From positions 1 through 64,000 of the forward strand of contig NZ_JANTHZ010000004.1 in assembly GCF_024752355.1 (NCBI RefSeq): a DNA stretch of 64,000 bases. The letters run 5' to 3'. Origin of the DNA: Ancylobacter mangrovi. GTDB taxonomy: Bacteria > Pseudomonadota > Alphaproteobacteria > Rhizobiales > Xanthobacteraceae. Below the pieces are notes generated by a model. It worked only from the letters and a program-made list of their open reading frames with translations, did not search any database and was not told the origin of the DNA. Below are positions 6,426-23,475 of this stretch, one piece after another (the first letter of the stretch is position 1; each line of letters begins with the position of its first letter). The position numbers were made by a program, and so were the translations under genes.

Positions 6426-9400
6426 CGTGTGCTGTCTCCCTTGACTGGCGCCTGTTCCTCAACATCCCGCAACGAGGTCATGGGCTGACCAGTCGGAGAT
6501 AAGTCGGATGGGAACCGGGAGTCGGCCGGGGGCTCCCTCATATTGCGTTCGAACATCTCAAACCAGCGGTGCAACTGGTCGCAAATGAACTCGTCGTCCT
6601 CAGTCAAGCCGAGCTCCGCCGCGATCGCCGCCTCATCCTGCTGGAGGAGATCAGGCCTTTGCCGGACCACGTTGTTGAGCGCCTTGATAGTGGTGATCCG
6701 GTCTCCCGTGGCAGGCTCATGCACCAGCGTGATGCGGGCAAGCTCCAACCCCGAAATCGTCCTTTCGAGGACGCGGCGGCTTTTACGGGTGATGGGGATC
6801 GGTTCGACGAATCGATCTCCGTGCGACACGAATTGCGGAAAGGCACGATAGACGCTTGCGTCCCGCTCACGGGTCATCTTCGGCACAACGATCACCAAGG
6901 CCGGCCACCTGCGGCCGACACGCGCCGTCGCCTGGATGAACTCGGCGACGCCCAACGGAAAGGCCAACATGATCATCACGTTGAGCCGGTCGATATCGAC
7001 GCCATGGGACATCATCGAGGAAGCGGCGATCAGGTGGAGGCGCTGATCAAAGTCTGCCTCGGGATGCTCAAGCCGGTCGAGAGTCTTACGGACGTCCTCG
7101 AAATCCGTCCGACCGGTCAGGGTCTCCACATTGGGCGGCGGCGTGAGCTCGGCGTACTGCGTCTCCGACGAGCGAACTACGGCGTCGATGTCCTGCAAGG
7201 TATTCCCGTAGACGACGTTGGTTCCGTACAAGTCGATCAGGAAGTCCGCGTAGCTGGGATCGACCCCAAGCTCGTCGAATAACTTATTGGGCTCATGCAC
7301 CAGTCGGCGGATCGCCGATTGCAGCGTCACGATTAGACGGTCGACGACGAACTCCACGGTCAGACGGCGAGGAGCAAATGCCACGTATCGACGCATGAGC
7401 CTGTCCGAGTCCGCCGCCCAGAAGCCTGCGCCATCCGACGGCGGCAACTGCGGGAAGACTCGGGCTTCCCGGCGGTAAAGGACATCTACCTGCTTCAAGT
7501 ACCCAGATAGTGTCGCCGAGGATGCCAGGATTTTCGGCTTCTGTCCGGACAACTCCTCCTGGATGCCGTCCATGGCGCACTCATAATGCGCATCGACGGC
7601 CCCAAGGCTGTCGCGCAAGAGGTGTAGCTCGTCCTGTAGGCGAAAGCTCGGCGGGAAGAGATCGGCCGCCATCGGCAACGCCGACGAAGCTGCCTTGCAA
7701 TCCGGAACCAAGCAGCCAGTGGGGAACTCAGTCCGCTTGGCGTAGGTATAGCCGTGTCCCGGTCTTGAGCATTTGCCCATCGGCGCACCAACGAGGCCAC
7801 GCATGCCTGTGTGACGGGAGATGTTGGCTGCCTTGTCGAGCGTACCGATGACGATGGTCGGGAGGAACCTCCAAATCTCATCGTCGACCACGTGGATCGG
7901 CAGTGCTTCGCCGGCCATAGGGCAACTGGCATTTCCGCACCGATGGTCCAGCCTCCAGAGTGCGCGATCGAAGCTGGTGGTGACGCTCCGCTCCCGGCAG
8001 AACGGACATGCATCCAGGAGCTTGAAGGGGTTCTCCATCTCCTCGATCTTGTCCGCGTCTTCGTTCGCCCGCTGGCTCTCCTTCTTGATGCGATTCGGCG
8101 TGGCGCCGCCGCCGACGAGGAAGCCGAGGGAGAACGGGTCGCCCGTGATCCCAACGTCGCGCCGGACCAACTCCGCGGCGGCTAGCGCATTGGCAAAACG
8201 CTGGGTCTGCTGGAGGGACAACATCCTGAGCGGGAAGCGGGACCAGGCTGTGACCCCGGAGAGCTTCCCTCGCATCCGATCCAGGAAGGCGGCGGTTAGC
8301 AGCAGTCCCAGATAGGTCTCGGTCTTTCCGCCGCCGGTGGCAAACCACACGATGTCGACAATGCCGCTTTCGTCGGCCCGGTCGACCAAGCAACGGAGAT
8401 TCGCTAGGAGGAAGGCAAACTGGAACGGACGCCACTTCGTGTACCGCCCGCGTGCCGAAATCGCCATGGCGCGATTCATCAGACGGAAAGCTGTCCGAAG
8501 CTGCTCATCGGTCGCCAGTAGCCCAGCGCCTTCGCGGATGCGTTTGATCTCAGTCTCGAATTCACCCCGAGCTTTAGCGGCCTCGGCGCGCATCCCGTCG
8601 GACCACCCCTCTCCGGCAGCGCGTGCAGCCAATGCGCCTTCGCTCCAGACTCGGTCCCCCCAAGCACCGAAGATCCGCAGCAAATCTTGAGCGGTGGTCA
8701 CCGGATCAGCGGCGAGCGCATCGAAGTCCATGCTCGGTTCTGGTTCGTCCGATGGCCAGAACTCTGGTCGGGCGCGGTCCTTGGCCGGGCCGTCACTCGT
8801 CCGGATGCGACCATCGTCATCAACGACGACGCCACAGTTGATGCCGTAGGCTTCCACGTCGCGGTTGAACCGGAAGCTGTCAGGCAGGGTCTCAAGTTCG
8901 AAGGGCATGCGGAGGAAACCTTCAACCGACAGCTCCGCTTCGAAGAACCGACCATCGGCCAGGTCTTCGTCCTCGGGGCTGGTGTTGACGAAGGTCACCT
9001 CCAGGGTGGGATAGCCGCCGCGATCTGAAACCCTCGTCCTGATCTCAGCGGAGAGCGATGGGACGCCCGCCGCTATGAAGGCGGTGTCGAAGATATCGGC
9101 GCCATGCACCTTGTCACCGACCACGTGCGGGGTGTTGAGGTCCAGCGAGACCTCGATGCGTTCGGACTTGTCCCAAGCCCAGCGAAAGCCGCTGCCCTCG
9201 TCAGCCCGGCGCCGGCGCCAGAGCACGAAGCCGATGTGGACGGTGAAGCGCCATGGCCCCGCGTCCGCCGGTCTCAGCCGCAGCCCGATTGCACATGGCT
9301 CAAGGCGGTCCTGTCGTTCATCAGCCAAGGTGACGAAGTCCTTGGGACCGAGGCGACCCAGCCAGAACCGGCCGGTGGGGTCGACGGGCGAGAAAGAGAC

Positions 9401-9514
9401 TTCATCGCCTCGGGCTTCGACTTGGACCCGGTGCTCCAACCAGCGGACGAACCGCTCCGCGACCCGGTAGCGGACGGCTTCATCGTCAGCTGCTTCGATG
9501 AATTCGTGCACCAT
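6422..9514 (-). CDS. drmA: DrmA-like DISARM helicase
   Basis: A 1030-aa SF2 helicase. A long N-terminal region of about 350 residues precedes the motor. Walker A is ATGGGKTETYLGLLL (TGGGKT at 393-398), followed by the family pattern SRFPLRMLSLQQTQRF near 425-439. Motif II is QDELHLL (DELH 628-631) and motif III is SSATLS (665-670). The second RecA lobe has SHGVDID near 836 and QATARVGR at 861-868. Zinc-like Cys clusters are near 503-531 and 582-606. The order and length match DrmA, which translocates on DNA in DISARM. Vsr ends 42 bases upstream and DrmB overlaps by 4 bases. Confidence 0.85.
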   Translation of the reverse strand: MVHEFIEAADDEAVRYRVAERFVRWLEHRVQVEARGDEVSFSPVDPTGRFWLGRLGPKDFVTLADERQDRLEPCAIGLRLRPADAGPWRFTVHIGFVLWRRRRADEGSGFRWAWDKSERIEVSLDLNTPHVVGDKVHGADIFDTAFIAAGVPSLSAEIRTRVSDRGGYPTLEVTFVNTSPEDEDLADGRFFEAELSVEGFLRMPFELETLPDSFRFNRDVEAYGINCGVVVDDDGRIRTSDGPAKDRARPEFWPSDEPEPSMDFDALAADPVTTAQDLLRIFGAWGDRVWSEGALAARAAGEGWSDGMRAEAAKARGEFETEIKRIREGAGLLATDEQLRTAFRLMNRAMAISARGRYTKWRPFQFAFLLANLRCLVDRADESGIVDIVWFATGGGKTETYLGLLLTAAFLDRMRGKLSGVTAWSRFPLRMLSLQQTQRFANALAAAELVRRDVGITGDPFSLGFLVGGGATPNRIKKESQRANEDADKIEEMENPFKLLDACPFCRERSVTTSFDRALWRLDHRCGNASCPMAGEALPIHVVDDEIWRFLPTIVIGTLDKAANISRHTGMRGLVGAPMGKCSRPGHGYTYAKRTEFPTGCLVPDCKAASSALPMAADLFPPSFRLQDELHLLRDSLGAVDAHYECAMDGIQEELSGQKPKILASSATLSGYLKQVDVLYRREARVFPQLPPSDGAGFWAADSDRLMRRYVAFAPRRLTVEFVVDRLIVTLQSAIRRLVHEPNKLFDELGVDPSYADFLIDLYGTNVVYGNTLQDIDAVVRSSETQYAELTPPPNVETLTGRTDFEDVRKTLDRLEHPEADFDQRLHLIAASSMMSHGVDIDRLNVMIMLAFPLGVAEFIQATARVGRRWPALVIVVPKMTRERDASVYRAFPQFVSHGDRFVEPIPITRKSRRVLERTISGLELARITLVHEPATGDRITTIKALNNVVRQRPDLLQQDEAAIAAELGLTEDDEFICDQLHRWFEMFERNMREPPADSRFPSDLSPTGQPMTSLRDVEEQAPVKGDSTR

Positions 9515-9556
9515 GTTCCGCCCCCGAGAACTGTCTAGCCGCGATTGATATCAGCT

Positions 9557-9976
9557 CTATAGGCGGGCCGGTCCAAGGAAATCGGCGAGCTTGACCTGCA
9601 GCCTCCCAATGTCCTTCAGCTCGCATTCCCAGACGATCAGGCTCTGCCATCCGGCCTCAGTAGCGTCTTCCTCTAGACGACGGTCGCGTTCTCGATTCCG
9701 GGCGAACTTCGCCGCCCAGAATTCCGTGCGCGTGGTCGGCATCCGAGCAGACGGACAGCCCTCATGAAAATGCCAGAAGCAGCCATGTACCTGGATGATC
9801 TTGCGCCGCCGAGTGAACGCCAGATCCGGGCGGCCGGGAACACCCTTCAATTGGACCCGGAAGCGGTATCCCAGGCCGTGAAGCATTCGACGAATGACCA
9901 GCTCTGGCTTGGTGTCCGACCGCCGGATACGTCCCATGAGCTTGCTGCGCTGCGCAGTGGTGATCCGGTCGGCCAT
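9557..9976 (-). CDS. vsr: very short patch repair endonuclease (Vsr)
   Basis: A 139-aa protein with the complete Vsr signature. MGRIRRSDTKPELVIRRMLH is near residues 14-33, PGRPDLAF (catalytic Asp of the PD-type site) near 47-54, the zinc/active-site segment HGCFWHFHEGC near 64-74, and EFWAAKFARNRERDRR after that. Vsr nicks 5' of T in T:G mismatches left by deamination of 5-methylcytosine. It sits 36 bases after the C5 methyltransferase, the classic dcm-vsr pairing. Its place inside a DISARM-like set suggests it limits mutation caused by that methylase; a defence-nuclease role is possible but unproven. Confidence 0.9.
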   Translation of the reverse strand: MADRITTAQRSKLMGRIRRSDTKPELVIRRMLHGLGYRFRVQLKGVPGRPDLAFTRRRKIIQVHGCFWHFHEGCPSARMPTTRTEFWAAKFARNRERDRRLEEDATEAGWQSLIVWECELKDIGRLQVKLADFLGPARL

Positions 9977-10012
9977 TCCAACAGGCTACCACACGTCACG
10001 CCCCGAATGGTC

Positions 10013-11674
10013 TCAGTGCGACCGAGCAATAGCGGAACGGCCAGCCGTTGAGCGGACGCGTGCTCGGATCGTCGAATTCACGGTCGATCCGACAAGGAGA
10101 CCCGCCGCAATCAAAGGCGCATTTCGCACAAGCTTGGCCAAGCCCACCAACGGCTTGTCGTCGCCGAACACCAAGCTTATCGCCGCATCGACAACCGCGG
10201 CCGCCACCATGGGCTCCGGTTGAAGCACTTCGATCAAGCGCGTCCCGGCCCTGTCAAGTTCGTCGAGCAGCATGAACGGACGGGTGCCGCCCACGCCTCT
10301 GTGGGTCCAGACCCGCTGCATGTTTTCGATATCTGCTTCGGTCACGTAGGTAGAAACGCCCGAAAGCACGGCTTCAACCTTCGGACGCAGACCCGTCGTG
10401 ACCACCTTCAACAATCGGATGAGCAAGGCGCCGTCCATCGGCACCGCAATGATGTCCTTTGAGGTGCCGAAGTAGAAGTCAACGGCCCAATCGGCGGTGC
10501 TATCCACGATCCGGTTGCGTAGCTCAAACCTGACCCCACTCTTCAGCTGTAGGCTTTGGATCGCGAAGCGGAAGCTCCGGTGGGAAGGGTATGTGGAGCC
10601 TGGTTGATGCGGCGGTGTCAGAACCGGCATAGGCTTGGGTGCCGAAAGACGCTCGGAATGGCTAGAAAGCACCGGCAGCACCTCGGCCTCGGTGCCTTGG
10701 AAGACGTGGCCCATGAGGTAGCTGAAGGCGGGAGGGATCGCGTTCCCCACCATCCGCAGCTTCTGGCCATAGGTGGCCCCGTAGAACTGGAAAGTGATGG
10801 GGAACCCCTGCAGGCTGGCGCGCTCCCGAACGGTCAGCCGGCGCACGCTTTCCGGCTCCTCAGGGGGATTGATGACGATACTTTCCCGCGAGACGCGGGT
10901 GCAGGTGGCCGTGATGGTGCGGACCGCCCGTTCCATTGGATCGGGAAATGGCATGGCGTTGTAGACTACATGGGCCCTCTTGTTGGCGCGGTTTATCCGG
11001 AGTTCTTCCGGATTCAGCGGCATCTCGGGAACGTGGTCCACCAGCTGTGATTTGGGGAGAGAGACGCCGTATAGCGGATCGCGAACGGGGTCTTGGCTCA
11101 GTGCAGTGATTACGTCTCCGAGTGTGGAACGGTCCAGTCGGGGCACGTAGGCCTGCAGCAGATTCATGTCAAAGTTCCCTGCCACGCAGCGCTTCCGCCG
11201 TTGAGGGAGACCGAAGTCCTCCATGTTCAGGATGTGGGGCCGTATGCCCAAATGGGAAAATGCATGCAGCCGGCCGCCGTCCTTCATTTCCTTATCGATG
11301 ATCGCTGCGACGCGTGGGACATTCTCCATCGCCCACATCCTCGGTTTCAGGTGATCAACGATCTTGAGGAAGGTGATGATGTCCTCAAGACCGTCCTCCA
11401 AGTCGCCATTGCCACCGCGGTTAGAAAACGAGAACTCCGTGCAGGGCGGGCTGCCAACCACAACGTCGATCCCCCCCGGTAGGTCGGCAAACGACAGGCG
11501 GCGGATATCCACCGTCTGCGCCTGGTGGTGGTTGTTCTTAAAATTGGTCTCGTTGGCTGGTCCCCAACGCTCGTAGGAAGCGACGACCTCGATCCCGGCA
11601 AGACGAAGTCCGAGTGACCAGCCACCGATCCCGGAATAAAGGTCGATAGCCTTCAGCGCGCGTTCGACGGACAT
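10013..11674 (-). CDS. DNA cytosine-5 methyltransferase, DrmMII-like
   Basis: A 553-aa protein with standard C5-methylase motifs: I DLYSGIGGWSLG (about 11-22), IV GSPPCTEFS with the catalytic Cys, VI ENVPR, VIII QRRKR, then SLQGFP and X GNAIPPAFSY. About 220 residues follow motif X with no recognised domain, giving a long C-terminal extension. ATG 11674 is chosen over an in-frame codon at 11698 because GGGGGAAA lies just upstream. In class 2 DISARM a C5 methylase (DrmMII) marks host DNA. Gene order methylase-vsr-drmA-drmB on one strand supports that role. Target sequence cannot be read. Confidence 0.85.
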   Translation of the reverse strand: MSVERALKAIDLYSGIGGWSLGLRLAGIEVVASYERWGPANETNFKNNHHQAQTVDIRRLSFADLPGGIDVVVGSPPCTEFSFSNRGGNGDLEDGLEDIITFLKIVDHLKPRMWAMENVPRVAAIIDKEMKDGGRLHAFSHLGIRPHILNMEDFGLPQRRKRCVAGNFDMNLLQAYVPRLDRSTLGDVITALSQDPVRDPLYGVSLPKSQLVDHVPEMPLNPEELRINRANKRAHVVYNAMPFPDPMERAVRTITATCTRVSRESIVINPPEEPESVRRLTVRERASLQGFPITFQFYGATYGQKLRMVGNAIPPAFSYLMGHVFQGTEAEVLPVLSSHSERLSAPKPMPVLTPPHQPGSTYPSHRSFRFAIQSLQLKSGVRFELRNRIVDSTADWAVDFYFGTSKDIIAVPMDGALLIRLLKVVTTGLRPKVEAVLSGVSTYVTEADIENMQRVWTHRGVGGTRPFMLLDELDRAGTRLIEVLQPEPMVAAAVVDAAISLVFGDDKPLVGLAKLVRNAPLIAAGLLVGSTVNSTIRARVRSTAGRSAIARSH

Positions 11675-12200
11675 TTTTCCCCCAGACCGGTAGATCAACC
11701 GTACTCGGGGAGGATTGCAAGATCCAGTCGGTTAAGGTCACACCTAATCCCGAAAACCGTCACCAGATCGGTGGTTATCCACGCATGCGCGCTCGAGCGG
11801 TCGCCGTCGTGCCCTTGGCTTGAGGTGAACGATCATAGGATCCATTTGGGCATGCCGCGCAGCGCCGCCACCCTGTGGCGCGGGCGCCGGCCTTCCTGAG
11901 GTCATCCAATGGAAGCTGTTGGCGCAATGGAGAGCTGACTGCTGGCGCCGACGATCGAGTGGTTGTCGGCGCCGCTGATCCTCAACCGAATTCTAACGTG
12001 TCCTCCCTTGGGCAGCTTCTCGGACCGGTAACGCTGGTGGACCGTTCTCAACTTAGCTGTGGAGGTCCGCAATCGGTACGGCTTGGAAGCGACGAGACTT
12101 GCTTCGTATTCACGTTCTGTTCTGTTACCTAAGAATGACGTCGCCGAATCCGCAGACTCGGAGCGGTCGAGTAAAGGGCAATAACGCCTAGGGCTGGTGG
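11675..12200 (+). promoter_or_regulatory. 526-base divergent intergenic region
   Basis: This stretch separates the methylase start (minus) from the SIR2-pAgo operon (plus) and should hold both promoters. A plus-strand open frame at about 11875-12132 has no recognisable domain or good ribosome site and is not called a gene. Several TTCT/AAC-rich patches occur near 12050-12130, but no promoter could be assigned with confidence. Confidence 0.35.
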
Positions 12201-15023
12201 ATGAATAAAGTTGGGGTGCCCAAAACCGGGTCAGTGTGGAGAACGTCCGCCATGCGGACGTCTACGCCTGCCAGGCTGCGATCGCTACTGATGGACAGCT
12301 CCGAGCCAGTGCTCCTTCTTGGCGCCGGCGCCTCTATCACTTCCGGCATCCCTGCTGCGGCCAAAACGGTCGAGAAGGTGGCGCGCTGGGCGTGGTGCAA
12401 GGAGAACGGCCGCCATCCGGATGACTTCACTATCCGCCGGTCCGACTATTGGCCGTGGCTCACCGCCCAGCCTTGGTACAGGCCGGAGCTCTCCCCTGCC
12501 GATCTCTACCCCGACGCTATCGACAACCTGTTAGGAGTGAAGAGCGATCGTCGAGAGTTCTTCGAAAAGCTAATTAACCCACCAGAGGTACCGCCTTCAC
12601 GGGGGTACGTCGCCCTGACGCAAATCTTGCATCAGGGTTGGATTTCGACCGTCTTGACTACCAACTTCGATCGGTGCCTCGAACGGGCAGCGATCCAACA
12701 GAATCGGCCCCACCGGCTAGTCAGCATTAGCACGCCTGCGGACTACGTAATGTTCAATTCTGCGCCGCACGATCCACAGCTCGTATTTTTGCATGGATCG
12801 GTGAAGCACTACACAGATAAGAACCTGACCGACGAGGTGCAATCGCTAGACCCGCTTTTGGTCGAACGCCTGCGGCCGTTGCTTCGCGACCATCCTGTCA
12901 TCACGGTTGGCTATCGGGGTGCCGAGGCGTCCGTCATGAACGATCTGTTCCTAGCTCAGGCCAAGGCGGGCAGCTTCCTGCACGGCGTCTATTGGTGCGT
13001 CCTTGAGAACGACTTGGCCGGCCCTCACTCGCCTTCGGTCGAGCAGCTTGCGGCCACGATCGGCTCCAACTTCCAGCTCGTGCCGATCCGGGGTTTCGAT
13101 GACTTGTTCGAAAAGGATCTGCTGGCCAGCATGATTGCCGCCGGGGCGAGGCCTACGCGTCGGCCTTCCGGCCACAGCGTCGGCGGCATGCCTGCGGACA
13201 TGCGGCCGCTCGACGGCCTCGACCTGTCCGGGTTCGAGCAGCCGCTGCTGCAGGCGCGCTTGCGGCAATATGCGGACCGGACTGATCTCTGGAGGCCGGG
13301 GGACATCGATGCCGCCTGGGTAGAGGAGATGACCGACCGGCTCGACCTAGTGCGGCCGGTTGGTGGGAGTGTCACCCCGACGCTCGCGGGTTGGCTGCTG
13401 TTCTCGCGCAACCCTTCCGTCGAATTCCCTCAGGCCCGAGTCGAGTTCTGCGCGATGGGCCCTGGCCACTGGCTGCGGGGCCGCTTCGGCGAGGACGTTG
13501 AACTGGAGCCGACGGCTCGCGACGACGAGTTCACCGTCCGGAGGACCATCACCGGCAACCTTTGGAGCCAACTCGACGATCTGATCGACCTTCTGGCGCT
13601 GGTGAACTTCCAGTTCAGGCTCAAGGCCGAAGTGTCGCGCACGGTGAACGCGTACAACGCCATTGCCATCAAGGAGATGCTCGTCAATGCGATCGTGCAC
13701 CGCGATTACGACCGAGACGAGGCCGTCCAGGTCGTCGTCGAACCCAAGTCGATCACTGTCATCAGCCCCGGCGGCCTCATAGAGGAGATCGCGGTCCAGG
13801 TCGCGGGACAATCCTTCCAGGACGCGATCGCGGAGCGGACCAGCCCGATCAAGGGCTATCGAAACCCCGCCATATCGGACCTCTTCTACGGCGGCGGCCA
13901 AATGGACCGTCGGGGATCAGGCCTCTCCGACATGGTCCTTGCAACCGTGAACAACAACGGGTCAGTCAGCTTCGGGCCATCGGCCGACAACACCCGATTC
14001 ACGGTCACCCTCGAGGCGCGGCCGGAAGCTGTCGACGAGATCACTAATACTGCGCTGCCGATGGCCGAGGAGACCGTCCGCTATTCCTCCAACCTGATCG
14101 CGATCGAGAGCATGCCGGCGAAGGTCTGGCACGCCGCCACCAGCGCCGGTTCCAACCGTAGCTTCTATCGCGCCGCGGAGGGTCTGGCGGTTCCGCCGGG
14201 CCATGTGAGCGACGGCCGCTTCTACTCCCTCTATGACTTGGAAGAGCTCGCTGAGGTGATGGTCACGCCGTTCGACCCCGGCGAGATCGAGGCGTTGGAC
14301 TTCAATGAGCTCATCGAAATGCCTGGGGGCGAATCCGTCGCCTTGAAGCTGCTTCATGAGCTGCTGTTCGAGCACCTGAAGACCAAGGGTCTACAGATTG
14401 AGTACGACCGGCGACGCGCCTACTTCGCGAGGGGCGACGAGCCGGAGCTGAAGGTCAGCTATCAGGGACGCCTACGCAAAGCGACCCGGACCGTGGTCAA
14501 GGCGCGCACGAAGCGCGATTCCGACGACATCGTCTACTACGAGCACAAGGCAGTCAGCTTCTCGGTCCTGCGCTTCGGCAGCGACTGGGCGGTCGTTCTG
14601 ACGCCCGGATACGCTTTCACCCGGGACGGCCTGCGCAACCCGATTAGCCGGGAGCGGACCAACGCGCTCTCCACCCGGCGCGCGGCGCGCGATTTCAATC
14701 CAAGTGTTCTCCAGGACGTGTCGTTCTGGCTCGCGATCCTGTCCGGCGAGGCCGAGGGCCTGTTCGCCCTCGAGCATCGCCCCGACAACGACCTCGCGCG
14801 GTTCGCCCCGTCCGTGCTCCTCTCGCATCGCATGCCGACGATCTCGTTCAACGTGTCGGCCTTCAACGAGCTGGCCCAGCGCGACACGGAGATCGACGAG
14901 GACCTCCAGAGGCTCGACGACGAGCTGGAAGCGCTCGCGCTCGAGCCCGACGAAGAGGACGGAGGGGGCTTGGGCCGGGACGGGGATGATCCCGGCGAAG
15001 GTGAGCCCGACGATGTCGATTGA
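12201..15023 (+). CDS. SIR2 - GHKL ATPase (RecG C-terminus-like) - APAZ-like fusion, pAgo partner
   Basis: A 940-aa protein; ATG 12252 (residue 18) is an alternative start. Residues about 30-310 form a SIR2 domain with GAGAS (41-45), TTNFD (153-157), a likely catalytic His in FLHGS (H198) and TVGYRG (235-240). Residues about 440-610 form a GHKL ATPase of the type at the end of RecG-like regulators: N-box EMLVNAIVHRDY (E492, N496, H500), ISPGGL (521-526), RNPAI and RRGSGL (570-575). Residues about 710-850 resemble the C-terminal part of APAZ: EYDRRRAYFA, YEHKAVSFSVLRFGSDW, VVLTPGYAFTRDG (798-810), then FNPSVLQDVSFW. An acidic tail follows. It overlaps the Argonaute gene by 11 bases. SIR2-APAZ proteins deplete NAD when short pAgo senses invaders; that role is inferred here. 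The GHKL insert is unusual. Confidence 0.8.
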   Translation: MNKVGVPKTGSVWRTSAMRTSTPARLRSLLMDSSEPVLLLGAGASITSGIPAAAKTVEKVARWAWCKENGRHPDDFTIRRSDYWPWLTAQPWYRPELSPADLYPDAIDNLLGVKSDRREFFEKLINPPEVPPSRGYVALTQILHQGWISTVLTTNFDRCLERAAIQQNRPHRLVSISTPADYVMFNSAPHDPQLVFLHGSVKHYTDKNLTDEVQSLDPLLVERLRPLLRDHPVITVGYRGAEASVMNDLFLAQAKAGSFLHGVYWCVLENDLAGPHSPSVEQLAATIGSNFQLVPIRGFDDLFEKDLLASMIAAGARPTRRPSGHSVGGMPADMRPLDGLDLSGFEQPLLQARLRQYADRTDLWRPGDIDAAWVEEMTDRLDLVRPVGGSVTPTLAGWLLFSRNPSVEFPQARVEFCAMGPGHWLRGRFGEDVELEPTARDDEFTVRRTITGNLWSQLDDLIDLLALVNFQFRLKAEVSRTVNAYNAIAIKEMLVNAIVHRDYDRDEAVQVVVEPKSITVISPGGLIEEIAVQVAGQSFQDAIAERTSPIKGYRNPAISDLFYGGGQMDRRGSGLSDMVLATVNNNGSVSFGPSADNTRFTVTLEARPEAVDEITNTALPMAEETVRYSSNLIAIESMPAKVWHAATSAGSNRSFYRAAEGLAVPPGHVSDGRFYSLYDLEELAEVMVTPFDPGEIEALDFNELIEMPGGESVALKLLHELLFEHLKTKGLQIEYDRRRAYFARGDEPELKVSYQGRLRKATRTVVKARTKRDSDDIVYYEHKAVSFSVLRFGSDWAVVLTPGYAFTRDGLRNPISRERTNALSTRRAARDFNPSVLQDVSFWLAILSGEAEGLFALEHRPDNDLARFAPSVLLSHRMPTISFNVSAFNELAQRDTEIDEDLQRLDDELEALALEPDEEDGGGLGRDGDDPGEGEPDDVD

Positions 15024-16512
15024 GCTGGCCATCGTTGAACTGTCTCCGCCGCGGCTTCAATTCGGCGGCGCGAGCACGCACACCGATCCCAAGGTCGGGC
15101 TCCTCTCCGCGGGTCCTTTCGACCTGCGCTTCGGGTCGGCCCGGAAGGACCATGTCCATGTCGGGATCATCGGCCCAGCCGAGCAGGTGGGAGCGGCGCG
15201 GCGCTGGCTGGAGCGCTGCAGTCGGGAGGTCCCGATCCTAGGTGAACTCAGCCTGCTCAAGAAGCCTTTTCCCGGCTTCGAGGAGGCTTTTCATAAGAAG
15301 CTGGTGGCTCCCGACACGTCCTCGATCGCGCTCAACTCGGAGAACCACGACGAACTCGCTCGAGCCTTGCAGGGGGACGCCTACCAGGCTTTTCAGCGCG
15401 TGGTCGATCTCTACGCCGAAGCGCATTCGCGCCTGGCGTCGCGCGACCTGAACCGTCCCGACATCGTGCTGATGTGCATTCCCGACGATGTCTTCAGCAA
15501 GGTCAGCTCCGTCGAGCGCAAGGCGACCGAAATAGAGCGTAAGCGCGCCAAGGAAATCCGGCGCGCTCGCCCGAGTGGTCAGCTAGACCTGTTCGACACC
15601 CTTGATGAGGTCGAGCAGACGCCCGAGGACTTCCTGAAGCGGGACCTCAGGCTGGCGCTCAAGGCGCGCGCGCTACGGAGCCGATTGCCGATCCAGCTGG
15701 TCACGGACGCCCTACTCAGCGACAATGTGAAGAATCAGGATCCGGCGACCCGTGCCTGGAACTTCGCGGTCGGCCTCTACTACAAGGCCGGGGGCGTGCC
15801 ATGGCGGCTGCCACCGACGGGACCGGACACATGCTTTGTTGGCATCAGCTTCCATCACTTCCGAACGACGCAGCGCGCCATCGTCCGTTCCAGCCTGGCT
15901 CAAGCCTTCTCGAGCGACGGTGAAGGGTTCGCCATCCGCGGAGACGGCGTTCCTGTGGAACCCGAACAGGGCCGGAACGTGCACCTCTCCGAGCAACAGG
16001 CGTTCGAGCTCGCCCAGAACGTTCTCGCCGAATACGAGCTGAGAACAGGTGGAGCGCCGCTCCGGGTCGTGCTGCACAAAACTTCCTACTTCGATGTTGC
16101 CGAGCAGGCGGGCTTCGCGGCGGCGCTCAAGGACACACCCATCGTGTCGATGGTCACCTTGGTGCCCAGCCTTTTCCGGCTCCTGCGGTACGGCCCTTAT
16201 CCGCCGAAGGTAGGGACGGTCTGCACGGTCAACAGCGACCGATCCTACCTTTTCACCTCCGGCTTCATGCCGGAACTCGGCACCTACCCGGGCCCGCATG
16301 TGCCTCAGCCGTTCGAGGTGCGCTGTCTCGGTGCAGAGAGCGCCGTCGCCGCCGCGCAAGATGTTCTGAACCTCACTCGGATGAATTGGAACACGGCGGA
16401 TATCCGGGGGAAATGGCCGGTGTCCTTGTCCTTCGCCCGGCGGGTCGGCGGTATCCTTGACGAGTATGGTGACGACGATCTCACCGAAACTTCGTTCCGT
16501 TATTTTGTCTAA
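15013..16512 (+). CDS. short prokaryotic Argonaute (MID-PIWI), catalytically inactive
   Basis: A 499-aa protein starting at ATG 15013, inside the upstream gene. Residues 1-40 carry the pre-MID pattern DPKVGLLSAGPFD. The MID region includes LKARALRSRLPIQLV near 216-230, in the place of the 5'-phosphate pocket. The PIWI domain starts at GLYYKAGGVPWRL (254-266) and includes VVLHKTS (352-358), YLFTSGF (412-418), TYPGPHVPQPFEV (424-436) and LTRMNWN (454-460). The first catalytic Asp, expected after VGI, is Ser (S279), so target cleavage is not expected. No N or PAZ domain is present. It is predicted to bind guide and target and trigger the SIR2 partner, as in SPARSA. Confidence 0.88.
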   Translation: MSIELAIVELSPPRLQFGGASTHTDPKVGLLSAGPFDLRFGSARKDHVHVGIIGPAEQVGAARRWLERCSREVPILGELSLLKKPFPGFEEAFHKKLVAPDTSSIALNSENHDELARALQGDAYQAFQRVVDLYAEAHSRLASRDLNRPDIVLMCIPDDVFSKVSSVERKATEIERKRAKEIRRARPSGQLDLFDTLDEVEQTPEDFLKRDLRLALKARALRSRLPIQLVTDALLSDNVKNQDPATRAWNFAVGLYYKAGGVPWRLPPTGPDTCFVGISFHHFRTTQRAIVRSSLAQAFSSDGEGFAIRGDGVPVEPEQGRNVHLSEQQAFELAQNVLAEYELRTGGAPLRVVLHKTSYFDVAEQAGFAAALKDTPIVSMVTLVPSLFRLLRYGPYPPKVGTVCTVNSDRSYLFTSGFMPELGTYPGPHVPQPFEVRCLGAESAVAAAQDVLNLTRMNWNTADIRGKWPVSLSFARRVGGILDEYGDDDLTETSFRYFV

Positions 16513-16892: not shown

Positions 16893-17444
16893 ATGCCACT
16901 TCAACTGCATTACATCGATGAGATTATCGCCGCCCGGAAAGCCCTTCACGGCGGTGGCAGGGGCGCGCCCAGGTTGCTGGCGTCGAACGCAGGAAGCCAA
17001 CAGGCCGAGCGCGTTGGGGCGGCGCTCAATCGAAGTTGCATCGTCCTCTTGAGCGCGGTTCTCCAAAGCTTCGTTGAGGACGTCTTCAAGGCTGAGGCCA
17101 GGCATAGATACCAGCGTCTCAATACCGACCCGCTGTTCGAGACGTACTGGAAGCAGATGAAGATGTGGGGAAACCCAAGTGATGAGAATGTGACCGCTCT
17201 CTTCCTCCGGATCGGCATTCCCGACGTCTTCGCTGGTCTCTCATGGCAGCGTACGCCAACTGCGGCAATCAAGAAGAAGCTGCGGCACCTGAACCAGATC
17301 CGGAACGGCATCGCCCATGGGAACGCGCATCTGCGCGTCGATAACGCGAACTACTCGTTGACGATGGCCAAGATTGAGAACTTCAGGAATTTTGCGGAGG
17401 CTTTCGGGGACCGATTCGAGGCGCACGTGCAAGGGTTCCGCTAA
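16893..17444 (+). CDS. HEPN-domain protein (RiboL-PSP-HEPN / MAE_28990 type)
   Basis: A 183-aa, mostly helical protein. Residues 46-66 (NRSCIVLLSAVLQSFVEDVF) and the motif RNGIAHG (R137-N138...H142) match HEPN proteins of the MAE_28990/RiboL-PSP type; Rx4H is the RNase active-site motif of HEPN toxins. No partner nucleotidyltransferase or antitoxin is adjacent. The IS remnant lies upstream and a recombinase downstream. Known HEPN proteins cut RNA in toxin-antitoxin or abortive-infection systems. Here it is an orphan whose target is unknown. Confidence 0.75.
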   Translation: MPLQLHYIDEIIAARKALHGGGRGAPRLLASNAGSQQAERVGAALNRSCIVLLSAVLQSFVEDVFKAEARHRYQRLNTDPLFETYWKQMKMWGNPSDENVTALFLRIGIPDVFAGLSWQRTPTAAIKKKLRHLNQIRNGIAHGNAHLRVDNANYSLTMAKIENFRNFAEAFGDRFEAHVQGFR

Positions 17445-17596
17445 ACGGTTGCCCTTGTCTTCGTGGCCGCGAAAGAGTGTCCGCTTTCCGCTTCGAAGCC
17501 AATGTCAGTTCCTGGCGCTGGCATCCCGCCGACCTCTTCGCGGCCGGCTCTTATGGCATTAGCCTAATTGGGGCTGCTCCTCGGAAGGAGGATGCC

Positions 17597-18223
17597 ATGC
17601 ACGTCAATCAAGAGATCCACTCACAGCACGAGCCTTGGAACGCCGGCCGGATCGTCGGAGCCAAGCCTCCCCTGAAGCCCAAGCACATATGGGCCCTGCG
17701 CACGCGGCTGCAAATTGCCAACCGGGTGCGCGATCTCGCTATGTTCAACCTTGCCATCGACAGCAAGCTGCGTGGCTGCGATCTGGTCACACTGAAAGTC
17801 GGCGACGTATTCTCCGGCAGCGGCATTCGCGCGAGATCAGTGGTCGTCCAGCACAAGACCGGCCAGCCGGTCCCCTTCGAGATCACCGAACCGACGAAGG
17901 ACGCTCTCGCTGCGTGGCTCGCAATCCGGCGCGCAAAGGGAAGCGATTGGCTTTGGCCAAGCCGCAGCCATAGTGGAGGACACGTCACAACTCGGCAGTA
18001 TGGGCGACTCGTCGACCAATGGGTCAGCCTGATCGGCCTCAACCCGGCGGATTACGGGACGCACAGCCTGCGGCGAACAAAAGTCTCCATCCTTTACAAG
18101 CGGACCGGAAATCTGCGTGCCTGCCAGCTCCTGCTCGGTCACACCAAGCTCGAAAGCACCGTGCGGTATCTCGGGATCGAAGTGGATGACGCCTTGAGCC
18201 TATCTGAGCAAACGGAGATTTGA
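17597..18223 (+). CDS. short tyrosine-type site-specific recombinase
   Basis: A 208-aa protein with a strong GGAAGGAGG ribosome site 5 bases before ATG 17597. All catalytic positions are visible: R59 (SKLRGCDLV), K87 (QHKTGQ), H156-x-x-R159 (THSLRR), H182 (LLGHTKLE) and Y191 (VRYLGI). It lacks a full N-terminal arm/core-binding domain, like other small stand-alone integrase-family proteins found in alphaproteobacterial mobile regions. It may move this island or resolve multimers; no attachment site was identified. Confidence 0.85.
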   Translation: MHVNQEIHSQHEPWNAGRIVGAKPPLKPKHIWALRTRLQIANRVRDLAMFNLAIDSKLRGCDLVTLKVGDVFSGSGIRARSVVVQHKTGQPVPFEITEPTKDALAAWLAIRRAKGSDWLWPSRSHSGGHVTTRQYGRLVDQWVSLIGLNPADYGTHSLRRTKVSILYKRTGNLRACQLLLGHTKLESTVRYLGIEVDDALSLSEQTEI

Positions 18224-18298: not shown

Positions 18299-19420
18299 TC
18301 ATGGTTTGCAGGCTGCTCCCGGCAGATTCAGATGGTAGCGCGTATATCGGCGCTCGCCGGTTCGCGTCAGGGCGCCTTTCTCGACCAGATCGTGCAGGTC
18401 ACGCGTGGCGGTCGGACGAGAAGTGCCGGTGATCGCGATGTAGTTCTCCGCGCTCAGGCCACCCGTGAATTCGCCGGGGCCTTCACGGAATAGCCGGGCG
18501 ATCACCTTCTCCTGGCGGTCGTTCATTTTGTCGCGGAAGCGATCGTAAAAGTGCGTCTTGGTGATGTGGAAGGCGACGCGGCCCAGTGTCGTCCGCTGGG
18601 CTGTGATGATCGTCTCGGCGAAGTAGGTCAGCCAACCGGTGATATCGAGTGTCCGCTGGTGGACCTCGAGCTGTTCATAATAGGCCTTGCGGTGCTGCTC
18701 GATGGTATGGGCGAGTGCGATCAGCGTCGGTTGTCCGATGTTCTGCGCGAGGGACTTTTCCGCGACGGCGCGACCAATCCGGCCATTGCCATCCTCGAAG
18801 GGGTGGATGCTCTCGAAATAGAGATGTCCAATCCCGGCACGGGTTAGGGCGGGCAGCGGCGTGCCACCGTTCGGTGCCGAGCCGTTGAACCAAGCGAGAT
18901 AGGCGGTCATCTCCCCGGGAACCCGAAAGGATGGCGGGGCCTCAAAATGCACCGTGGGCCGATCGTAACGGCCGGACACGATCTGCATCGCGTCTTCGTG
19001 ACGGCGGTAACCGCCAATCGTCTCCAGATGCTGGCTGTCAGCCATGAGCATGCGATGCCAGCGGAACAGGGTATCGTCTTCCAGCGGATCCGCCCAACTC
19101 CGGTACAGATCGGCCATCATCTCCGCGATACCGCGCTCCTTCGGCTTCACGGTGCGATTGTCGGTGTCGAGGCCGAATTGCCGGCGCAGCGAGGATTGCA
19201 CGCTCAGGCGATCCAGGGCCTCGCCCTCGATCGCGCTGGTCTTGACCGCCTCGTCACTGAGAAGTTCGATCCGCAGCAGGTCGCGGTCATCGTCGCCCAC
19301 ATGCCGGACCGCGCCGATCACCTCACCGGAGAGCAGCAGGAAGTGCCGCTCCAGCGACTCAAGGGCGGCTGGATCATAGGTAAAGTGCGGCCAATGGGGC
19401 TGCGTCCAATTCCATGCCAT
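18299..19420 (-). CDS. Fic family protein with DUF4172-type N-terminus
   Basis: A 373-aa protein. The N-terminus (WNWTQPHWPHFTYD) is the DUF4172-type start of this Fic group. The inhibitory motif TSAIEG (61-66, S/TxxxE-G) precedes the Fic core, making it a self-inhibited class II enzyme. The active site HPFEDGNGR is intact at 206-214. The C-terminal 90 residues form a winged-helix-like region. Fic enzymes move AMP from ATP to protein hydroxyls. A GAGGAGG site precedes the ATG. It is divergent from the HNH gene across an AT-rich spacer. Confidence 0.9.
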   Translation of the reverse strand: MAWNWTQPHWPHFTYDPAALESLERHFLLLSGEVIGAVRHVGDDDRDLLRIELLSDEAVKTSAIEGEALDRLSVQSSLRRQFGLDTDNRTVKPKERGIAEMMADLYRSWADPLEDDTLFRWHRMLMADSQHLETIGGYRRHEDAMQIVSGRYDRPTVHFEAPPSFRVPGEMTAYLAWFNGSAPNGGTPLPALTRAGIGHLYFESIHPFEDGNGRIGRAVAEKSLAQNIGQPTLIALAHTIEQHRKAYYEQLEVHQRTLDITGWLTYFAETIITAQRTTLGRVAFHITKTHFYDRFRDKMNDRQEKVIARLFREGPGEFTGGLSAENYIAITGTSRPTATRDLHDLVEKGALTRTGERRYTRYHLNLPGAACKP

Positions 19421-20503: not shown

Positions 20504-22816
20504 CTACGCCGCCTCCCAGACGCGGTTCAGGATCTGTGCGGCGAGCGCCGCCTTGTCCTGCGGCAGGAAGCGCCCATAGTGCTTGGCCACCATGTCGGGC
20601 GTGTCCTGGATCGCATAGCTCGCCTGCTCGTAGGAGCCGGTCTGCTTCAGGATATGGGTGGCGAGCACGTCGCGGACATTGTGCGGTCCATGGGGCAATA
20701 GCCCCTTGATTGCGCCGCGATCCGTATAGGGATTGTCGATACCGTAGCGCTGGATTGCGAGCCGCCACGCCTCATAGAAGGTGTTCTGGTCGTACGCGGC
20801 GTCCTTGCTGGTCAGTTTTACCGTCTTTACGAACAGCGTGCCGGGATCGGCGGCATTCTTAAGCAGTGCTCTCCGGTGCCGGTCGATATAGGCGTCGAGA
20901 TAGTGGTAGAGACCGCCCAAGTCCGGCAGGATCAGCCGGAACGGCTTGCTGCCGAAGAAGGACGAATTCGCGTTCTTGAACGCGACGGAGGGGATGAACA
21001 CTTCCCAGCCTCGATCGCGTTCGCTCCAGCGCAACTCGCCGCGCTTCAGTTCCGTGAGCCGACGTTCCGAGCTCGGAATGTGTCCGCGCGGGCAGACGAG
21101 GAGCTGGCGCAGGTTCTTCTGGCGCAGCCCGAGATGCAGGCCGAGCCGGAGCATCAGGAAGGCTCGCACCGCCTCGGCCGCGGCGCGGGGGTAGCGCTTC
21201 TCGTCCGGCATCAGCCGCAGGATCTCCTCGGTGATCTTGCGGTACTCACCAACGGGACTGTCGGCTTCCAGCACGACCATGACCGGCTCGAAGGGATCGC
21301 GATGGATGCGCGCGACACGTTGGACTTCCTTGGCGCGGGCAAGTCCATGCTTGTGCATCTGCTCGCAGGCGCCGGCCCAGTCGGCGCGGATTGCGGCGAT
21401 GTCGCACTCGGTGATGAGATTGGGAATGGGCTTGATCCGATCAGCGAGTTGCGAGCTCTGGCGCAGCCACCCGGTGTCGACCCGCGTCAGTGCGATGGCG
21501 ATGCGCAGCATGTCGACTTCCCATGCGGTGTAGAAGCCACGCCGACGTTCGCGCCATTGGATGTACCAGTCCCAGACGATCGGAAAGACGAGAAGACCGA
21601 CGGTCAGGCTTTCCAGTGGCACGCCGAAACCGTGCACGGCCCCGCTCGGCGCTGCCGCCAGGGCGCCGAACATCAGGCCGAGATGCTCGACCTTCTGCGA
21701 GGCGGTCTCCTCGCCCCAGACGCCGTTGCGCTGATAGCCGAAGGCTGTCAGCGTCGCCGTCTTGAAGCGGACAAGGTCCGCCATCTCCTCGGAAAGCTGG
21801 GCCGGTGCATCCACGGCCGCGACCGCAAGCTCGGGATCGGGCAGGCTACCATCCTCTTCCCGGCAGAAGCGATAGAGCCCGCGCGGACGCGTGGATTCGC
21901 CGAGCAGGCCGGGAAAGCGCACTGCGTAGCGCTGTCTCATCGCGGCAGCCTGGAACCGACGATATTCCGTCGAGCCGGAAATCACTACGCGCTGCACCCA
22001 TTCGAGAATTTCTTCCCGTTCCTTCAATGGACGGCGATCGAAGTCGAAGGGCAGATGCCAGGCGAGGCGCCGCCGTTCGGCACGGGTGATGCCGGCAATG
22101 GTGCCGGCCGAGGTGCAGCGGTCAGTCATCGGTAGTTTCTGCCTGAAGTAGCCGAGTGGCAGGCGATAGCGCCGCTCGATGAATTCCAGCGCCGCAAGGC
22201 TACGGGCTGCGCGCGGCACCTTCACGCCGCGCCGCCACATGTTGAGGGTCGTCTCGTCGACCTGACTGGCGCCGTTCGCCAGGACGCGTGCGAGATGCTT
22301 CGAACTATCGCCGTGTCGGCGCATGTGAAGCTCCAAGGCATCGGTGAAGGTTGCGGGATTCTCCCACAGCTTGCCGTCGCTCTCTGGAAAATCCACGATG
22401 GGCTTGGGGCGGACACCGGGCTTGCGGCGCGGCGGAGCGGACGTCTCCGGTCGCGGATTGGAATCTGCCGACTCTGCAGGGGTATGGCGCGCAGTCGCAC
22501 GAGGTATCCGGCGAGATGCGGCGCGGCTCGCCTTCCTCGGGTGGAGTCCTCCATTCTGGCGAACGTCCCGCGTCAGAGCATCGAGGCCGGGCGAGAGGAC
22601 ACGCGTGGCGCGTTTGAGGTCGGCATGATCGACGCCGCAGGCATTCGAGATGGCGAGCCAGTCGTAGTCGTGCCCGGCCTTTGGCGGAGACATCCGGGCG
22701 ACGAGCAGCCCGAGAAGCCAGTTCTGGAACAACGCTGCATCGCGCGGCGACAGAATGGTGGTGACGCGCTGCTGGCAGAATTTCTCCAGCATGCGCGCGA
22801 AGGTCAGTCGAGGCAT
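20504..22816 (-). CDS. large tyrosine recombinase-like protein
   Basis: A 770-aa protein. The C-terminus holds integrase-fold motifs: LGLHLGLRQKNLRQLL (Arg, near 575), HGPHNVRD (H712, R715) and DTPDMVAKHYGR (candidate nucleophile Y747). Residues about 165-235 look like a helix-turn-helix region (DETTLNMWRRGVKVP). Most of the centre is unrecognised. Similar very long recombinase-like proteins occur on mobile islands; the enlarged middle could bind DNA. Catalytic activity is plausible but not proven by motif alone. Confidence 0.65.
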   Translation of the reverse strand: MPRLTFARMLEKFCQQRVTTILSPRDAALFQNWLLGLLVARMSPPKAGHDYDWLAISNACGVDHADLKRATRVLSPGLDALTRDVRQNGGLHPRKASRAASRRIPRATARHTPAESADSNPRPETSAPPRRKPGVRPKPIVDFPESDGKLWENPATFTDALELHMRRHGDSSKHLARVLANGASQVDETTLNMWRRGVKVPRAARSLAALEFIERRYRLPLGYFRQKLPMTDRCTSAGTIAGITRAERRRLAWHLPFDFDRRPLKEREEILEWVQRVVISGSTEYRRFQAAAMRQRYAVRFPGLLGESTRPRGLYRFCREEDGSLPDPELAVAAVDAPAQLSEEMADLVRFKTATLTAFGYQRNGVWGEETASQKVEHLGLMFGALAAAPSGAVHGFGVPLESLTVGLLVFPIVWDWYIQWRERRRGFYTAWEVDMLRIAIALTRVDTGWLRQSSQLADRIKPIPNLITECDIAAIRADWAGACEQMHKHGLARAKEVQRVARIHRDPFEPVMVVLEADSPVGEYRKITEEILRLMPDEKRYPRAAAEAVRAFLMLRLGLHLGLRQKNLRQLLVCPRGHIPSSERRLTELKRGELRWSERDRGWEVFIPSVAFKNANSSFFGSKPFRLILPDLGGLYHYLDAYIDRHRRALLKNAADPGTLFVKTVKLTSKDAAYDQNTFYEAWRLAIQRYGIDNPYTDRGAIKGLLPHGPHNVRDVLATHILKQTGSYEQASYAIQDTPDMVAKHYGRFLPQDKAALAAQILNRVWEAA

Positions 22817-23127
22817 GTTTGATCAGAAGAACGCAATGGTGAGGAGGCGAATCGCCTCGGATCGGGCAGCATTTCTCGGCAATGGAGATCGCTCGCGAAA
22901 GCCCTTCAAGCCGTTGATCCACTGATCGATTAAGCGAATTGCGATGTCGGCCCGCTGCGTGATCGGAGCGTTGACGAACGCGCGGTCACGCTCAACTACA
23001 TCTGCCTACAACGTCCGGTTTCGGACATCTCATCAACGTCAGCTCCCGCCAACAAGCGGAAGTTGTGCCAACGCAACAGGGACCTTGGCTGGAGTCGCGT
23101 CGTCGCGATCTTCCCTTCACGGGCGAC
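22817..23127. other. 311-base stretch with no gene; likely right edge of the island
   Basis: No coding frame, tRNA or clear attachment repeat was seen. A tight hairpin lies at 22844-22858 (GAGGCG, loop AAT, CGCCTC). It separates the recombinase start from the oxidoreductase operon end, so it contains the recombinase promoter and the downstream end of the opposite operon. Confidence 0.4.
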
Positions 23128-23475
23128 CTAAGGCGCCTTGCGCATCTGCCCGGAATAGCCGAGAAGCCTCCGCACTTCGGGCAGCATGTAATAGGCCCCC
23201 GCGATCAGCTGCAGCGCGGCGAGAAGGACAGCCTGATCGTCCTTTTCGATCTCCCGGACGACGTCCTGCCCATGGCGCCCATGCGCCCGGGCGACCAGAT
23301 CGCGCACAGGATCCAGAAGCTCCGGCCGTGCGGCGAGCGCCCGATCGATCGGCCCCTCGCACAATCCGACATCGGAAGCGGACGGCATGCCTCCATGGCG
23401 CGGTATCAGGATATCGGCGATCTCCGCGAGTACAGCGCGCTCACGGGATGTCAGCGATAGAGGTTCGCCGTTCAT
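23128..23475 (-). CDS. gluconate 2-dehydrogenase subunit 3-like protein
   Basis: A 115-aa protein with the subunit-3 pattern: LTSRERAVLAEIADILIPRH near 8-27, then PSASDVG and a C-terminal helix. It has no Tat or Sec signal. Its ATG overlaps the GMC oxidoreductase stop (ATGA), so the two are made together. In membrane-bound gluconate/sorbitol dehydrogenases the small subunit helps secretion or assembly of the flavoprotein. Here both lack signals, so a cytoplasmic complex is likely. The substrate is unknown. Confidence 0.8.
   Translation of the reverse strand: MNGEPLSLTSRERAVLAEIADILIPRHGGMPSASDVGLCEGPIDRALAARPELLDPVRDLVARAHGRHGQDVVREIEKDDQAVLLAALQLIAGAYYMLPEVRRLLGYSGQMRKAP

Follow-up and report, generated by a model that had tools for sequence, protein, structure and literature searches.

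The window analysed here, a stretch of 64,000 nucleotides from Ancylobacter mangrovi (contig NZ_JANTHZ010000004.1, positions 1 to 64,000), carries at 12201..16512 of the forward strand two overlapping genes that sequence and fold searches support as a short-Argonaute operon, with a SIR2, a GHKL and an APAZ domain combined in one partner protein. The pair is almost certainly a composite short-Argonaute immune system, and its architecture is already catalogued rather than new, the locus being a further member. As a whole, we favour as probable the reading that it performs guided depletion of NAD+, with the GHKL domain as a nucleotide-dependent assembly switch. An earlier note on this DNA had proposed the operon, the three-domain partner and an 11-base overlap with a MID-PIWI protein; all of these were borne out, and the motifs that it named lie at their sites in the partner and amount to more than chance resemblance, as judged by the Pfam and PDB sequence matches.

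The partner protein (Aga) has 940 amino acids (12201..15023, + strand) and matches the PADLOC profile PDLC02402 nearly end to end with 1393 bits. The short Argonaute has 499 amino acids and an ATG start (15013..16512, + strand), and was recognized by PADLOC pAgo_I (1.1e-144) and by the short-Argonaute chains 9om4_B (9e-61) and 9jsb_A (9e-54). Both reading frames share the 11 bases 15013..15023, an overlap that suggests translational coupling of the two proteins; in 14 tabulated loci of relatives the overlap, with the open frame counted from its earliest start codon, is 4-23 bases. Pfam found SIR2_2 and HATPase_c_4 and nothing else in the partner, and no match in the 499-residue Argonaute; the Pfam family Piwi (PF02171) missed it even in its own genome (0 of 1) and so cannot serve to test for a short Argonaute of this kind. 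With NCBIfam, neither protein had a family match at E 0.01. The start codon of the partner is uncertain, with an alternative in-frame ATG at 12252 (residue 18); alignments to the partner begin at residue 1 in the loci L001-L003, and at residues 7-20 in the other 16 near-full-length relatives. At its other end, residues ~914-940 (14940..15020, +) form an acidic and poorly conserved tail with no invariant position in a family alignment.

The N-terminal SIR2 domain (residues ~30-305; 12288..13115, +) was identified by Pfam SIR2_2 (2e-10) and by the SIR2 domain of SPARSA, of which chain 8in8_B matches residues 30-305 in the PDB sequence search (1.3e-09). Its motifs GAGAS, TTNFD and FLHGS occupy residues 41-45, 153-157 and 196-200. 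G41, A42, G43, S45, N155, D157, H198 and G199 are identical in 22/22 proteins of the family alignment, which covers 22 of the 26 near-full-length proteins (L028, L029, L030 and L056 left out). The dyad N142/H186 of SPARSA aligns with N155 and H198 of the partner; according to passages of PMC10781750 (the literature is cited throughout for single passages of the papers named), NAD+ loss by SPARSA requires this Asn-His dyad. By analogy, the SIR2 domain would probably be an NAD+-hydrolysing (NADase) effector. Early surveys predicted a nuclease function for Argonaute-linked SIR2 (PMC2743648, PMC6299218), and a nuclease or an ADP-ribosyl transferase would be the alternative; we regard it as very unlikely, as both counterparts of the SPARSA dyad residues are invariant. 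In a phylogenetic tree, the SIR2 domains of the family members form one clade (support 97/96), but the branches outside it, which bear on the origin of the SIR2 domain, are weak (66/78). A SIR2 domain 31% identical to that of the partner also occurs in a 690-residue protein at the locus L032 (1447-3519), a 3.8-kb locus that gave no Argonaute match.

The middle of the partner consists of a GHKL domain (HATPase_c_4; residues ~476-610; 13626..14030, +) and, ahead of it, the segment that precedes GHKL in COG2865-type modules (pre-GHKL part; residues ~330-475; 13188..13625, +). We take COG2865 to be the name of the family of DIP2311-type modules. Pfam detected HATPase_c_4 in the partner at 2e-05 with 24.9 bits, just below the curated cut-off of 26, and the PDB sequence search matched DIP2311 (3lmm) to residues 456-582 (7.1e-05). 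AlphaFold modelling of residues 320-615 gave a confident structure (mean predicted local distance difference test, pLDDT, 82.1; predicted TM-score, pTM, 0.83). Structural similarity search using Foldseek revealed that this model most resembles DIP2311, with 5.7e-11 and a TM-score of 0.52 by query length over ~280 columns, followed at a far weaker level by the catalytic cores of histidine kinases (from 8.3e-04). The modelled fold thus assigns the middle of the partner to the GHKL domain and pre-GHKL part of the COG2865/DIP2311 family.

The motifs of the GHKL domain comprise the N-box residues E492, N496, H500, R501 and Y503, within EMLVNAIVHRDY at residues 492-503, followed by SPGG at 522-525, R554-N555, and G572 and G574 within RRGSGL at 570-575. 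E492, N496, H500, R501, Y503, G524, G525, R554, N555, G572 and G574 are identical in 22/22 aligned proteins, and P523 of SPGG is replaced in one of the 22. HATPase_c_4 was found at E 0.01 or better in 19 of the 20 members scanned with Pfam; the GHKL domain of the deep member L031 was missed by Pfam, yet aligns with the family. The GHKL module is real and is maintained in the family.

None of the 20 scanned members gave a Pfam match to AlbA_2/Schlafen. Two non-Argonaute proteins, L023 and L024 (one encoded in a second genome of the genus, the other in a genome of the order), match the middle of the partner only. They consist of AlbA_2 and HATPase_c_4, and their segment from just past AlbA_2 to the end of GHKL aligns with partner residues ~330-610; in a class-wide scan, too, many partial matches, from separate and shorter open reading frames, lay within this stretch of the profile. 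The simplest reading of these alignments is a domain swap, in which SIR2 would have replaced AlbA_2 and APAZ the C-terminal region.

The C-terminal APAZ domain (residues ~632-885; 14094..14855, +) starts at ~613-632 and ends near 885. An APAZ-like stretch had been noted earlier at residues 735-850, an assignment that was right as to the domain and too short as to its extent. In the PDB sequence search, the APAZ domain of an HNH-type partner (9om4_A) matches residues 613-848 (2.6e-13) and that of a DUF4365-type partner (9qbl_A) residues 671-885 (2.8e-06), whereas the APAZ domain of SPARSA gave no match to this part of the partner. Both EYDRRRAYFA, from residue 734, and VVLTPGYAFTRDG, from residue 798, lie within the domain. 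The fold, on whose presence the earlier reading hinged, also emerged from Foldseek with a full-length model of the partner built by AlphaFold from 20 family sequences: SPARDA chains ranked at the top (9qbp_C, 4.5e-13), and a SPARSA chain (1.8e-11) and 3lmm (2.4e-08) were matched as well.

Similar to the APAZ domain, the Argonaute is closest to nuclease-type systems by its scores. Its PDB matches fall from HNH-type (9e-61) through DUF4365-type (9e-54 to 3e-46) and TIR-type (from 2e-37) to SPARSA Argonautes (6e-19). It scores 481 bits on the PADLOC profile PDLC02376 (residues 7-499), compared to 166 bits on PDLC02377. Four Argonautes read as nuclease-type score 554-620 and 164-202 bits on the two profiles, respectively, and three read as S1B score 195-217 and 619-709 bits, the partner types of these seven references having been assigned by eye; two TIR-type Argonautes score 343-351 and 112-115 bits. 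In a 40-row Argonaute tree, six S1 rows (SIR2-APAZ or fused) group at 100/100 to the exclusion of this family, the Argonautes of which, deep members included, group at 92/82. The family stands beside DUF4365/SMEK-type rows with weak support (57/86). For the eight added rows L057-L060 and L064-L067, partner types were judged by eye rather than by a profile scan, using neighbouring open reading frames, the position in the tree or, in the case of the fused protein, the length of its open reading frame. In approximately unbiased (AU) tests, union with the S1 (SIR2-APAZ) Argonautes gave p values of 0.061 (40 rows) and 0.32 (39 rows, with fewer S1), and union with the TIR-type Argonautes 0.31 and 0.29, respectively. 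Seven near-duplicate family rows were dropped for the second of the two trees, and the program gave a long-branch warning for both.

In these sequence trees the Argonaute is thus placed outside the S1 group, with a sister relation to S1 not formally rejected. The system might instead belong to the S1B SPARSA clade, or be closely sister to it, and have acquired a GHKL insert, sharing with that clade the type of effector and, by the AU tests just given, a single clade that is not rejected; we consider this origin very improbable, in view of the exclusive grouping of the six S1 Argonautes and that of the family, of profile scores opposite to those of the three S1B Argonautes, and of an APAZ domain that matches nuclease-type partners and not that of SPARSA. 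The earlier label of a SPARSA-like operon accordingly suits the effector, which is SIR2, and not the chassis: by its scores, the combination of Argonaute and APAZ appears to be of the nuclease type (SPARDA/SPARHA), with weak support for its deep placement in the trees and HNH- and DUF4365-type systems as its nearest solved structures.

The conservation of the gene pair further supports the operon. A scan of species genomes for the partner yielded 21 loci, of which 19 (L001-L019) are near full length, and in all 19 the Argonaute adjoins the partner on the same strand. Adding L025, L028-L031 and L056, where it also adjoins, the Argonaute is adjacent in 25/25 further near-full-length loci with partners 29-91% identical, as the earlier note, which had named co-conservation as a check, would have it; not all of the 25 are independent (L006 and L028 have identical scores and zero distance, L011 and L016 identical Argonautes, and L002 and L003 nearly so). 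The two remaining loci, L020 and L021, hold fragments of the partner only (residues 18-127 and 18-185) without an Argonaute, and were not counted, since the remainder of the partner is absent from them as well. The hosts of the 21 loci range from rhizobia to sphingomonads, plus one planctomycete. In a class-wide sample, 46 of 385 genomes gave any match, a category for which the profile is unspecific (matches in 5/14 control genomes), and five, own genome included, had a near-full-length partner. Among the 61 genomes formed by the own genome and 60 relatives, any match occurred in three, and a near-full-length one in the own genome only. Of 18 plasmid records in a plasmid collection, none covers 80% of the partner in one place; one of them, L025 (5474-9503), is nevertheless a true deep member, carried on a Mesorhizobium plasmid. 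Together with L031, it is 29-35% identical to the partner and has the same architecture without ~27 residues of the pre-GHKL part. An IMG/VR contig (L056, 143-9294) encodes a serine recombinase and a terminase-like protein next to its copy of the pair (81% and 86% identity), which is possibly phage-borne.

DNA similarity to the four closest relatives (L001-L004) starts at 12240-12277 and ends at 16475-16499, the sole further match being 82 bases near 25352 in L002. Because the similarity stops at the gene pair, the two genes appear to move jointly, as one unit. Over the 22 aligned proteins, two of them deep members with an identity of 38-39% for SIR2 and 30-32% for GHKL, the invariant positions number 52 of 269 in SIR2, 14 of 141 in the pre-GHKL part, 21 of 127 in GHKL and 22 of 249 in APAZ. 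The ratio of nonsynonymous to synonymous substitution rates (dN/dS) against four relatives was 0.03-0.17 in 15 of 16 domain comparisons; it was 0.035-0.074 in the three of four GHKL comparisons that could be computed, synonymous sites being saturated in the other, and 0.034-0.084 for SIR2, single values being rough as several dS exceed 1. These comparisons show a pair that is co-inherited and, to judge from the substitution ratios, under purifying selection.

We propose that the pair by itself would make up an abortive-infection system of the short-Argonaute type. The MID-PIWI protein and the APAZ domain would hold a small guide, which is RNA in solved relatives, and recognize complementary invader DNA; the PIWI domain would not cut, and target binding would lift the inhibition of SIR2, which would then hydrolyse NAD+ and thereby kill or arrest the infected cell. 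Guide RNA together with target DNA activates the SIR2-APAZ/Argonaute (PMC10781750) and TIR-APAZ/Argonaute systems (PMC10474274), and the two nucleic acids lie between MID-PIWI and APAZ in solved relatives (PMC11156904, PMC10474274, PMC12205087). Activation upon target binding involves tetramerization in TIR systems and filaments in SPARDA (PMC11156904, PMC10474274, PMC12205087 and titles of PDB entries), whereas for SPARSA an unchanged oligomeric state (PMC10474274) stands against tetramers cited elsewhere (PMC12205087). With less certainty, the GHKL domain would bind a nucleotide and serve as the assembly switch between target recognition by APAZ and Argonaute and the SIR2 effector; it lies where a nucleotide-dependent clamp could draw SIR2 domains to each other. 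That a nucleotide-bound GHKL domain is needed for activation is a tentative part of the proposal, short of probable, and a need for hydrolysis by it is unlikely.

Several points weigh against this proposal. Classic GHKL enzymes have a G1 box of the form DxGxG. At this site the family has SPGG or NPGG, without the aspartate; the box is also absent from L023 and L024 (SPGR/SPGK). Several N-box residues (E, N, H, R and Y) are common to these non-Argonaute AlbA_2-GHKL proteins, so that their conservation may reflect the fold as much as gating, and the pre-GHKL half is weakly conserved. The full-length model of the partner is of moderate quality (pLDDT 69.7, pTM 0.41), and its confidence is low near the active-site loops of SIR2. 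The non-cutting PIWI is inferred from the class of the Argonaute, the short-Argonaute class having an inactive PIWI (PMC12205087). Among the literature matches listed, we recognized neither a study of ATP binding by this GHKL subfamily nor a functional study or measured activity of a SIR2-GHKL-APAZ protein. Finally, plain SPARSA works without a GHKL domain.

The GHKL domain might therefore be a structural spacer or constitutive dimerization scaffold that binds no nucleotide and fits SIR2 to a nuclease-type chassis of APAZ and Argonaute, a possible though doubtful explanation. The absent aspartate of the G1 box would agree with it, as would SPARSA, which does without such a module (PMC10474274), and the nearness of the APAZ domain and the Argonaute to nuclease-type systems, for which SIR2 could need an adaptor. 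However, the N-box residues, the GG of SPGG, the RN pair and the G-x-G are invariant in 22/22 proteins at ~30% domain identity to the deep members, and the dN/dS of GHKL is on a par with the low ratio of SIR2, where a mere spacer should drift more at its pocket positions. Quite unlikely, in our view, is a role as metabolite sensor, which would hold SIR2 inactive as long as ATP or another nucleotide is abundant and release it once infection depletes the pool, in addition to target recognition or even in its place. Such a role would suit a module directly between SIR2 and APAZ, whose GHKL domain follows another kind of N-terminal domain in the homologous AlbA_2-GHKL proteins, but the adjoining Argonaute at all 25 loci argues that guided recognition stays central.

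In the sharpest form of the switch proposal, which seems to us possible and on balance doubtful, the system would be a two-key NADase: target recognition by Argonaute and APAZ would be insufficient until the GHKL clamp closes on a nucleotide and thereby dimerizes SIR2. Suicide would then be licensed by a matched invader together with the nucleotide state of the cell, and this would be, to our knowledge, the first case of a short-Argonaute system whose effector protein contains a switch driven by a nucleotide. Short Argonautes are a modular kit of a recognition half and a swappable effector, to which this family adds a third kind of part, a strictly selected, regulator-derived GHKL module between sensor and effector. 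If the module binds a nucleotide, energy-state gating of a guided suicide system becomes directly testable, and the AlbA_2-GHKL proteins gain a candidate function as a portable switch that drives different N-terminal effectors. The prior presence of the architecture in PADLOC limits the surprise.

The pair lies in a defence-rich stretch, in the order NERD-UvrD helicase, DrmB-like and DrmA-like genes, Vsr, C5 methyltransferase, the pair, HEPN, integrase, Fic and an HNH gene. Upstream, the NERD-UvrD helicase-like protein (3131-4732, +) matches the DRT-associated PADLOC model RTasNERD-Hel (1.7e-51), and a DISARM-like cassette (4719-11698, -) comprises DrmB-like, DrmA-like helicase, Vsr and C5 DNA methyltransferase genes; the DrmA-like helicase scores 369 bits, far below the NCBIfam equivalog cut-off of 950. 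Directly after the Argonaute come a HEPN gene of the RiboL-PSP type (16893-17444, +) and a tyrosine integrase (17477-18223), neither of which was found at the 21 relative loci searched, whose flanks cover no more than 9 kb on either side and in some cases far less. A Fic protein with DUF4172 (18299-19420, -; PADLOC SoFic, 4.9e-42) follows, and two large open reading frames at 20504-25031 (770 amino acids on the - strand and 695 on the + strand) have no Pfam or PADLOC match. Within the flanks covered at the 21 loci, a wider linked operon was rejected: of 11 flanking window genes, only DrmA was matched there (L005, 32%).

Comparison with known systems shows that the architecture, thought earlier to be possibly uncatalogued, is present in PADLOC-DB 2.0.0 (2023) in two models. 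Aga_SIR2-PNTD1-PNTD2 (PDLC02402) matches residues 23-918 of the partner over profile positions 2-866 of 876, and Aga_SIR2-Kinase-PNTD1-PNTD2 (PDLC02418) matches residues 163-920 over positions 1-750 of 756 with 1212 bits, lacking the first part of SIR2. The deep member L025 matches PDLC02402 over positions 10-824 of 876, and a class I short Argonaute stands beside the partner as in the pAgo_I pairing of PADLOC. No architectural difference from these models was found; they constitute a catalogue entry, not a mechanism. The term DHS-like denotes a fold class that includes SIR2. Earlier surveys contain further candidates: the APAZ orthogroup og_40 of Ryazansky 2018, a SIR2_1 fused with Schlafen in prokaryotic-Argonaute operons, and, within APAZ group IIb, 13 proteins with SIR2 (both PMC6299218), as well as S2B short Argonautes with DHS-like-APAZ partners (PMC12205087). 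Both og_40 and the present family combine SIR2, a Schlafen-annotated region and APAZ, and the passages on og_40 give no mechanism; what the family shares with Schlafen-type proteins is the GHKL half, not AlbA_2/Schlafen. From these passages we infer that og_40 and the group IIb proteins are very probably the same family as here, and that the S2B group may be so too.

Among solved systems, SPARSA (S1B; 8in8, 8jkz, 8y80) likewise has a SIR2 with an Asn-His dyad, an APAZ domain, a short MID-PIWI protein and a two-gene operon. However, its SIR2-APAZ protein has 587 residues (8in8_B) and the partner ~300 more, so that the GHKL module is, as first suggested, an addition relative to SPARSA: compared to the short SIR2-APAZ linker of SPARSA (residues 309-331 in GsSir2-APAZ, PMC10781750), the partner has a ~300-residue GHKL module between the two domains. 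In the 40-row tree, moreover, SPARSA Argonautes lie inside the S1 group and this one outside. SPARDA and SPARHA (DUF4365-, SMEK- or HNH-APAZ; 9qbp, 9qcc, 9jsb, 9om4) are the closest solved combinations of Argonaute and APAZ, but their effector is a nuclease fused to APAZ, compared to a SIR2 and no nuclease domain by Pfam here. The COG2865/DIP2311-like AlbA_2-GHKL proteins (3lmm; L023 and L024) possess the same pre-GHKL and GHKL module; whereas they carry an N-terminal AlbA_2 and a C-terminal region of their own, the partner described here carries SIR2, APAZ and an Argonaute alongside.

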